Positions 50,353 to 53,292 of a DNA stretch of 64,000 bases are shown here, in pieces. Numbering within the stretch: position 1 is the stretch's first letter; every line of letters begins with the position of its first letter. The DNA comes from Dehalococcoides mccartyi (GTDB taxonomy: Bacteria > Chloroflexota > Dehalococcoidia > Dehalococcoidales > Dehalococcoidaceae), in NCBI RefSeq assembly GCF_001889305.1, contig NZ_CP013074.1, positions 62,001 through 126,000 on the forward strand, read 5' to 3'. Both the position numbers and the translations under genes were made by a program. The notes under the pieces are model-generated. The model did no database searches and had not been told where the DNA came from. It was given only the letters and a program-made list of their open reading frames with translations.

Positions 50353-51687
50353 TTGTCTATTCGGCCTGCACAAGAACTGTGGGAAACAGCCCTGGGGGAA
50401 ATTGAACTTCAGGTAAACAAGCCCAATTTCCGCACCTGGTTTGCCAAAACTGTCGGCCTTAAGTACGATGGCAGTGAGTTTATTATAGGCGTTCCCAATA
50501 CTTTTGTAGCCGAATATCTAGAGATCAATCAGCGTTCGCTGATTGAAAAAACCCTGATAAATATTACCCACAGCCCGGTTGAGCTGGGTTTCCAGCTTGT
50601 CCAGTCCGCTCAGGTACAGGCTAGCGCTCCCCAAACAGCCAGAGAGAAAACTGTTTCGCCCTTTAACCCCCGTTACACCTTTGAATCCTTTATAGTGGGC
50701 TCCTGCAACCGCCTGGCTCATGCCGCTTCGCTGGCCGCCGCCCAGAATCCCGGCAAGAGCTACAACCCGCTTTATATCTATGCGGCAGCCGGTTTAGGCA
50801 AGACCCATCTTTTACAGGCTATCGGCCATCTGGCAAACTTAAACCGCCGCAAGGCCCTGTATGTCAGCGGGGAACAGTTTACCACTGATTTTATATCATC
50901 TATCCGAAACGGCCAGACAGAAGAGTTCCGTGCCCGCTACCGGGATGTAGATTTATTGCTGCTGGATGATGTCCAGTTTATCGGCGGCAAGGAGCAGACC
51001 GAAGAATGCCTGTTCCATACCTTTAATGACCTGCATAACTCCAACCGCCAGATAGTTATTTCAGCGGATTCACCCCCAAAGTCACTGCCCCAGCTGGCCG
51101 AAAGATTGCGTTCCCGTTTTGAGTGGGGGCTGACTATTGAGATTGAACCGCCTGATGAAAAAACCCGCTTTGAGCTTTTACAGCTTAAAGCCGAGCAATC
51201 CGGTGCCGAACTTAATATGGATACCCTGGAGTATCTGGCACAGGAAGTAAAGCATAATATCCGTGAATTGGAAGGCAGCCTTAACCGGGTGCTGGCTTAT
51301 GCCCGCCTGTTAAGGGCAACCATTACCCCTGATCTGGCCGCCAGAGCCCTTTCAGATATCGGCTCACGCCCGATCAGGGAAAACAGCCCTCTCCGTCCCG
51401 GTAATATAATTTCAGCCGTATCCCAGGTATTTCAAGTACCGACAACCGAACTTTTGGGTGCCGCCCGTGACAAAGATACGGCTCTGGCCCGTCAGTTTGC
51501 CATGTTTATGCTTAAGCAGCAGAATTCGGCCTCTCTGGTAGAAATAGGCCAGTCTTTGGGGGGAAGAAGCGCTTCCACCGTCAGCCACGCCTGCGATAAA
51601 ATCCAGCTGGAGCTGGAAAACAGCGCTTTTCTTCGCCTGAAAATGTCTGAGGTTCAAAACCACCTTTCCCAGCAGCGTCTTCCTTGA
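50353..51687 (+). CDS. dnaA: Chromosomal replication initiator DnaA, with altered DNA-contact residues
   Basis: The 444-residue protein starts at a TTG behind GGGAGG. Domain I occupies about residues 1-85, the AAA+ core about 105-330, with the P-loop AAAGLGKTH in place of the usual GGxGLGKTH and the Walker B LLLLDDVQFIGGKEQTEE region. Domain IV (about 345-444) has the helix-turn-helix but reads GGRSASTVSHA where nearly all DnaA proteins have GGRDHTTVxHA. Aligned to E. coli, D433, H434 and T435 are S406, A407 and S408, P423 is V396, while R399 is kept as R372. The major-groove contacts are thus changed, which predicts a different DnaA box. Confidence 0.95.
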   Translation: MSIRPAQELWETALGEIELQVNKPNFRTWFAKTVGLKYDGSEFIIGVPNTFVAEYLEINQRSLIEKTLINITHSPVELGFQLVQSAQVQASAPQTAREKTVSPFNPRYTFESFIVGSCNRLAHAASLAAAQNPGKSYNPLYIYAAAGLGKTHLLQAIGHLANLNRRKALYVSGEQFTTDFISSIRNGQTEEFRARYRDVDLLLLDDVQFIGGKEQTEECLFHTFNDLHNSNRQIVISADSPPKSLPQLAERLRSRFEWGLTIEIEPPDEKTRFELLQLKAEQSGAELNMDTLEYLAQEVKHNIRELEGSLNRVLAYARLLRATITPDLAARALSDIGSRPIRENSPLRPGNIISAVSQVFQVPTTELLGAARDKDTALARQFAMFMLKQQNSASLVEIGQSLGGRSASTVSHACDKIQLELENSAFLRLKMSEVQNHLSQQRLP

Positions 51688-52017
51688 TACCTGTAATCCG
51701 CTGTTTCTTGCCGCCCCTTCCGCAGTTGATAGTTTCCCCTTAATAACAGGCTGTTTGCCAAACGCTTTTGCCGGTTTTTCTATTATTTTTAGACAGTAGT
51801 TCTATAACTTTGTTATATTTTTCGATAACTGGACTAAATTTTCTATAACTTTACGGGAACTCTGCTTTGGAAAACGCACTCTGTGCTTAAAATAGAGTTT
51901 TTACTCGTAAAGCCTTATTATTAGTATTTCTGATATACTTAAAAAACAAACAAGTTAAAGTTAATGGGATTTCGATAACCGAAGAGTTTGATAACTTTTT
52001 AGATAAGGTGTTTTGAT
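51688..52017. other. Candidate chromosomal origin (oriC) between dnaA and obg
   Basis: This 330-bp gap has no gene. It holds five same-orientation nonamers TT(C/T)(T/G)ATAAC at 51800-51808, 51821-51829, 51841-51849, 51971-51979 and 51987-51995; on the minus strand they read TTAT(C/A)(G/A)AA(A/C) after a leading G. The first three are 21 and 20 bp apart, so on one face of the helix. The line 51781-51840 is 78 % A+T (13 G/C of 60), and the region around it is similarly AT-rich, suitable for unwinding. Position next to dnaA, phasing and AT-richness support an origin; classical TTATCCACA boxes are absent. Confidence 0.65.
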
Positions 52018-53292
52018 ATGTTTGACAGAGTAGAGATAAGGATAAAGGCTGGAGATGGCGGCAGCGGCAAGGTCAGTTTCCGCCGTGAAAAATTCGTTCC
52101 TTACGGCGGGCCGGACGGGGGCGATGGCGGGGATGGGGGCAATGTATATCTGGAAGCTGATTCCGGGCTTTACAGCCTTTTAAATTTTAAGCATAAACGG
52201 GTGCACAAGGCGGCCAATGGCGAGAATGGTATGGGCAGCCGCTGTACCGGCCACAACGGGGCTGACCTGGTGATAAAAGTGCCGGTTGGTACGGTTGCTA
52301 CTATTGTGGAAGAAAACGGCCAGAAACGGGTTCTGGCTGATTTGGCCGCTGACGGAGACTGTACTCTGATAGCCCGCGGGGGACAGGGCGGACTGGGTAA
52401 TACCCACTTTGTTTCATCCACCAACCAAGCCCCCATGCTGGCTCAGAAAGGCCAGCCGGGCGGCGAATATGAGCTGATATTGGAACTGAAACTGATTGCC
52501 GATGTGGCTATTATCGGCTATCCGAATGTGGGTAAGTCTTCACTGCTTTCACTGCTTACTGCGGCCAAACCCAGGGTGGCTAACTACCCGTTTACTACAC
52601 TGTCACCGGTGATGGGTGTAATTCAAAGGCCGGAGGGTGCCTTTGTTATGGCGGAAGTACCCGGCCTTATTGAAGACGCCCATCTTGGCAGGGGGCTTGG
52701 TCATGACTTTTTGCGTCATATTTCCCGTACCCGCATGGTTATCCACCTGCTGGACGGGACTTCGGATAACCCCATAGACGATATGATAAAGGTCAACAGC
52801 GAGCTGTACCTTTATGACGCCTCTTTGTCGGAACGTCCACAGGTGGTGGCGGTAAATAAAATAGATGACGAACTGGTACAGCTTAGACGGGAAGAGTTGA
52901 CAGAGATCTTTAAAGAAGCCGGGCTGGAGGTATTTTTTATTTCTGCCCTGACAGGCGAAGGGGTGGAGGTGCTTTTAACTAAAGTAGCTGAAAAGCTGGC
53001 TATTCTTAAAGCGGCAGATGCACCTGAAACAGAAATTGACCATGAAATCAAGGTGTTCAGGCCTGCCCCCAAGGGAAAAATGGGTTTCCGTATAACCCGC
53101 CTGGAAGACGGCTGGCAGGTTGAAGCGCCTGAAATTGAACGTATTATTGAGCACTCTGATATTGAAGATTTGGAGGTCAGGCGGCAGATAATGGTGCTTC
53201 TAAAACACCGGAATGTCCAGCAGGCTTTAATAAAGGCCGGGGCAGTTATCGGCCAGAAGATTATAACCGGCAGGATGGAATGGTATCTTTAA
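52018..53292 (+). CDS. obg: GTPase Obg/CgtA
   Basis: Obg is an essential GTPase in 50S ribosome maturation and stress control. The 424-residue protein has the glycine-rich Obg fold (residues 1-160), the G domain with GYPNVGKSSLLSLL (G1, about 165-178), NYPFTTLSP, VPGLIE and NKID motifs, and a C-terminal OCT domain. The start lies 23 bases after the last origin nonamer. It overlaps nadD by 13 bases, giving an obg-nadD operon. Confidence 0.96.
   Translation: MFDRVEIRIKAGDGGSGKVSFRREKFVPYGGPDGGDGGDGGNVYLEADSGLYSLLNFKHKRVHKAANGENGMGSRCTGHNGADLVIKVPVGTVATIVEENGQKRVLADLAADGDCTLIARGGQGGLGNTHFVSSTNQAPMLAQKGQPGGEYELILELKLIADVAIIGYPNVGKSSLLSLLTAAKPRVANYPFTTLSPVMGVIQRPEGAFVMAEVPGLIEDAHLGRGLGHDFLRHISRTRMVIHLLDGTSDNPIDDMIKVNSELYLYDASLSERPQVVAVNKIDDELVQLRREELTEIFKEAGLEVFFISALTGEGVEVLLTKVAEKLAILKAADAPETEIDHEIKVFRPAPKGKMGFRITRLEDGWQVEAPEIERIIEHSDIEDLEVRRQIMVLLKHRNVQQALIKAGAVIGQKIITGRMEWYL

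Follow-up and report, generated by a model that had tools for sequence, protein, structure and literature searches.

Few protein–DNA pairs of bacteria are as conserved as DnaA and its box: His434 (E. coli numbering) is kept in 53 of the 55 DnaA proteins sampled, by similarity, outside the phylum. In Dehalococcoides mccartyi, dnaA encodes other residues at the base-reading positions, and the gap between dnaA and obg holds nonamers that depart from the classical box. This raises the question of whether the gap is the replication origin, and whether initiator and boxes have changed together. We analyzed a stretch of 64,000 nucleotides (the window), which comprises bases 62001–126000 of a single-contig chromosome of 1,521,287 bases. 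A preliminary description made from these letters had proposed a lineage-specific origin.

Results

DnaA and the dnaA–obg gap

By score, the DnaA of the window is an ordinary member of its family. The full-length TIGR00362 score of 466 bits lies above the equivalog cut-off of 343.9 bits, and the protein is the only PF08299 match in the whole genome. The PF08299 match (70 bits) identifies the helix-turn-helix fold of domain IV, and an AlphaFold2 model of the domain (pLDDT 87.4) matches the domain IV–DNA complexes of E. coli (1J1V) and M. tuberculosis (3PVP) with a target-normalised TM score of 0.94. The fold is predicted to be intact, and from its agreement with the known complexes the recognition helix that carries the altered residues would be intact as well. 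In an alignment with domain IV of E. coli, the window protein reads GGRSASTV; at positions 399, 423 and 433–436 it has R, V and S-A-S-T, against R, P and D-H-T-T in E. coli, with S and A in place of the canonical base-reading D433 and H434. Family membership stands, since the TIGR00362 model does not require these two residues. R399, R432 and T436 are invariant in an alignment of 38 sequences, and residues 433 and 434 vary across the order. The alignment bears out the S-A-S change at 433–435 and the retained R399 of the preliminary description. The replacement of P423 by V, which it had counted as part of the same switch, is present but uninformative: we rejected it because position 423 varies freely, differing widely in other phyla.

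Table 1. Features of the dnaA–obg locus (window coordinates)
Feature	Position	Strand	Basis
dnaA, chromosomal replication initiator, 444 aa, TTG start	50353..51687	+	TIGR00362 466 bits; PF00308, PF08299, PF11638 domains
Codons for S406-A407-S408 (E. coli D433-H434-T435), recognition helix	51568..51576	+	E. coli alignment; predicted fold matches 1J1V, TM 0.94
Proposed oriC, dnaA–obg gap	51688..52017	.	Cumulative GC-skew minimum at 51951
DnaA box 3 of spaced array, TTATAGAAC	51799..51807	-	Motif scan, candidate by sequence
DnaA box 2 of spaced array, TTATCGAAA	51820..51828	-	Motif scan, candidate by sequence
DnaA box 1 of spaced array, TTATAGAAA	51840..51848	-	Motif scan, candidate by sequence
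Stretch with 77% A+T separating the two clusters of boxes; candidate for an unwinding element, the obg promoter or both	51895..51965	.	Composition; putative function
obg-proximal DnaA box, TTATCGAAA	51970..51978	-	Motif scan, candidate by sequence
obg-proximal DnaA box, TTATCAAAC	51986..51994	-	Motif scan, candidate by sequence
Sixth DnaA box, TTATCTAAA, absent from the preliminary description	51998..52006	-	Conserved in both genus relatives (G008, G067)
obg GTPase gene; constant neighbour of the origin when dnaA moves	52018..53292	+	Array upstream of obg in relatives

Five nonamers had been described on one strand of the gap. All five (51799, 51820, 51840, 51970 and 51986) are confirmed on the minus strand, and the count rises to six (Table 1). 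The boxes at 51799, 51820 and 51840 form an array with the spacings of 21 and 20 bp reported for them, and the A+T content over 51781–51840, given earlier as 78%, is 78.3%. The cluster follows the pattern TTAT[AC][AG]AA[AC], which widens to TTAT[AC][AGT]AA[AC] with all boxes included; none of the window boxes agrees with the canonical TTWTNCACA, whose second half is C6-A7-C8-A9.

Between the two box clusters, a T(T)AAAG...GATATACT core at 51907–51939 is common to Dehalogenimonas-like genomes upstream of obg; it may be the obg promoter, an unwinding element or both. A search for a DnaA-trio beside the boxes returned just a loose TAATAATAA within the A+T-rich stretch, and we claim no trio.

The array across the order and the phylum

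The three-box array is kept in both genus relatives (G008, G067), apart from minor differences at bases 5 and 6, and the boxes are conserved across relatives with the same DnaA, as the preliminary description had anticipated. For 105 loci across the order we scanned the gap after dnaA, scoring TTAT and A7 only: minus-strand arrays with 20/21 spacing and at most two mismatches are present at 40 of them, whereas the plus strand gives 2 and shuffled sequence none. In many members of Dehalococcoidales the arrays lie beside dnaA or upstream of obg, on the same strand. Other families of Chloroflexota (L213, L214, L217, L225) repeat the canonical TTATCCACA in the same geometry, so the array predates the altered boxes. 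Of the lineage-specific origin proposed earlier, the 3' half of the box stands as specific, together with residues 433–434; the position of the origin and the spacing of its boxes are ancestral in the phylum.

In family f32 (L266, L267, L269, L272, L276, L279, L292), whose DnaA keeps D433 and has lost H434 (DAAS, DPSS, DASY), no recognisable array was found at dnaA or obg, and none was recognised beside either gene in class genomes with D-A-A-T, D-K-S-T or D-R-S-T. Four class-level loci, L242, L243, L244 and L245, read AKAS, DRST, DKST and DAAT at 433–436, and no array was found near their dnaA.

Box bases follow residues 433 and 434

In strict arrays, which have three perfect TTATNNA boxes, base 8 is C in 18 of 18 boxes from six genomes with H434, and A in 40 of 42 boxes from fourteen genomes with Ala or Pro434, the exceptions being box 1 in G093 and in G037. 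In relaxed arrays, with up to two mismatches per array and a plus-strand false rate of 11/191, C8 is found in 32 of 34 boxes with H434 and A8 in 97 of 106 boxes without it; boxes that have C8 despite the loss of H434 occur in G093, G037 and G039. Counted by locus, base 8 goes with residue 434 in 25/25 and 38/38 cases. Base 6 is G in one of 26 boxes with D433 and in 45 of 114 without. Three genomes have lost D433 and kept H434 (G035, NHST; G054, THST; G335, GHVA); their boxes retain C8 and their base 6 is A, C or G, which indicates that the effects of residues 433 and 434 are separable. The TTA end of the box and R399 stay fixed while the 3' half co-varies with domain IV, and the expected co-occurrence of the SAS-type DnaA with altered nonamers is thereby supported. 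From this co-variation, rather than from structure, we infer which residue would read which base.

At L028, L278 and L281, the first array box retains C8 (TTATCAACA or TTATCGACA) though H434 is lost; it may represent an intermediate state or serve another role.

The same match could have arisen by shared ancestry: the gap would be oriC, the changes at base 8 and residue 434 would have drifted once or a few times, and their agreement would be historical, not functional. Independent contrasts are indeed few, and A8 also fits A+T-rich drift. Trees from which domain IV was left out show 3–4 changes of base 8 and 6–11 of residue 434, and an independent-pairs test yielded one pair on well-supported branches, too few contrasts for significance. 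A Pagel-type comparison of 77 rows, 15 of them hand-coded from arrays upstream of obg and one (L051) a tie, preferred dependent evolution (LR 39.7, nominal p 5e-8); such a test is generous when events are few, so the p-value overstates the case. Three observations speak against drift. The array sites hold TTAT, A7 and usually A9, and their base 8 is nearly all A (97/106) or C (32/34) instead of being scattered. Canonical arrays persist with H434, including those of family f35, whose DnaA groups in the tree with that of P434 lineages. The changes at residues 433 and 434 can occur apart, each with its matching base change. We therefore regard a purely historical match as unlikely, and the link between residue 434 and base 8 as likely, not proven.

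The position of the proposed origin

GC skew, sampled over the chromosome in twenty spaced 20-kb stretches and the window, is negative up to the gap and positive beyond it, and the opposite switch lies near 0.85–0.91 Mb. The cumulative minimum within the window falls at 51951, inside the gap, as at a bacterial oriC and within the 51.7–52.0 kb named by the preliminary description. Skew thus places the origin at the dnaA–obg gap.

In eight Dehalogenimonas-like genomes (L181–L188) and in family f2 (L268, L270, L271, L273, L274, L277, L278), dnaA lies away from obg and the array is still upstream of obg; its boxes, alike in type, strand and spacing, are ~150–220 bp from the gene. In these genomes dnaA is therefore a poor marker of the origin. 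In G041 the cumulative skew is lowest at 1714046; obg starts ~20 bp away, and dnaA is ~13 kb distant. Agreement is poorer in G094, where the skew switches ~27 kb from obg. An origin at that switch (708–728 kb; L165, G094:C1:708001-728000) was considered and rejected: a box cluster is absent there, and the region upstream of obg is the better place. The displacement of the G094 switch from obg perhaps reflects a local inversion.

Lying between two genes, with three boxes downstream of the obg promoter-like core, the boxes might instead be mainly a site through which DnaA controls transcription of dnaA or obg. The array remains when dnaA leaves, however, and cumulative skew has its minimum at the gap in the window and, in G041, at the obg-upstream array. 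Together these argue for the array being the origin rather than a dnaA regulatory site, and we consider a mainly regulatory role very improbable.

The pattern TTAT[AC][AG]AA[AC] occurs 22 times in the window against 6.7 ± 2.9 in shuffled sequences, a count that is partly due to base composition. The genome-wide count proposed in the preliminary description showed no enrichment of single nonamers (130+119; the reversed pattern gave 179+168), as scattered chance matches would give. The sampled genome holds no second such cluster: five same-strand nonamers fall within a 210-bp stretch inside the gap, against two at best elsewhere in the 444 kb of chromosome sampled, and the spaced three-box array occurs once in the genome and 0 times in the control. 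The gap thus has the DnaA-box cluster with conserved geometry that characterizes bacterial oriC. Chance matches in A+T-rich DNA, to which the commonness of the single motif and its lack of genome-wide enrichment would point, are refuted to near certainty by the uniqueness of the cluster and by the conservation of spacing, strand and position over many families.

Discussion

The dnaA–obg gap is very probably oriC, at which initiator and origin appear to have changed together while the place and spacing of the origin were kept. The locus would be an ordinary oriC in which, across the order, initiator residues and box bases appear to have been rewritten in concert. Domain IV of DnaA would bind both the spaced array and the obg-proximal boxes: the invariant R399 would make the minor-groove contact at the TTA end, as its E. 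coli counterpart does, and the recognition helix would read the other half. In Dehalococcoidales, His434 would have given way to Ala, Pro, Ser or Thr, and the matching array sites would have exchanged C for A at base 8. Base 6, formerly C/A, would have been relaxed by the loss of Asp433, so that G is now allowed. The origin may unwind here, with the A+T-rich stretch as candidate element. As to the sequence of events, we lean towards a stepwise rewrite of the DnaA reading code, in which Asp433 changed first and freed base 6, and His434 followed with the change of base 8 from C to A, in step with the boxes of a still-active origin.

Compared with a canonical oriC with TTATCCACA boxes and its DnaA domain IV (1J1V, 3PVP), the window locus has in common the fold, R399, R432 and T436, the TTAT half and clusters of boxes with A+T-rich DNA. 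It differs in the loss of D433 and H434, in A at box base 8 and in the freedom of base 6. TTATCGAAA appears in Ori-Finder (2008) as a species-specific DnaA box proposed for Dehalococcoides, and this box and the predicted oriC represent the same genus-level motif as the window boxes; the passage concerned gives the motif in a list, without mention of DnaA residues, the geometry of the array, other members of the order or obg-bound origins (PMC2275245). In Epsilonproteobacteria, lineage-specific boxes have been tied tentatively to helix-5 substitutions (PMC5043019). Their origins resemble the window locus in having a lineage-specific box preference, but there T stands at position 5 and the changes are at 435 and 438–439 with 433–434 kept, whereas the window changes 433–434 and bases 6 and 8 (PMC5043019). 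Thermotoga maritima likewise combines altered recognition residues with a non-canonical box, a 12-mer (PMC10225481); the box is of different length and sequence, and the change unrelated to that of the window. Searches of the open-access literature turned up no description of the 433/434 changes in this order, nor of their match to box bases, an absence that is not proof of novelty. The altered box was proposed in 2008; the matched change in the protein seems unreported.

If the stepwise rewrite is true, it provides natural initiator–origin pairs whose specificities are no longer canonical. An order with altered residues, altered bases and intermediates would form a natural series for the joint change of an essential initiator and its origin without loss of replication. 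In practical terms, searches with TTATCCACA would fail to place the origins of Dehalococcoides, Dehalogenimonas and related uncultured genomes, and the rule for these genomes is to search upstream of obg with TTATNNAAA.
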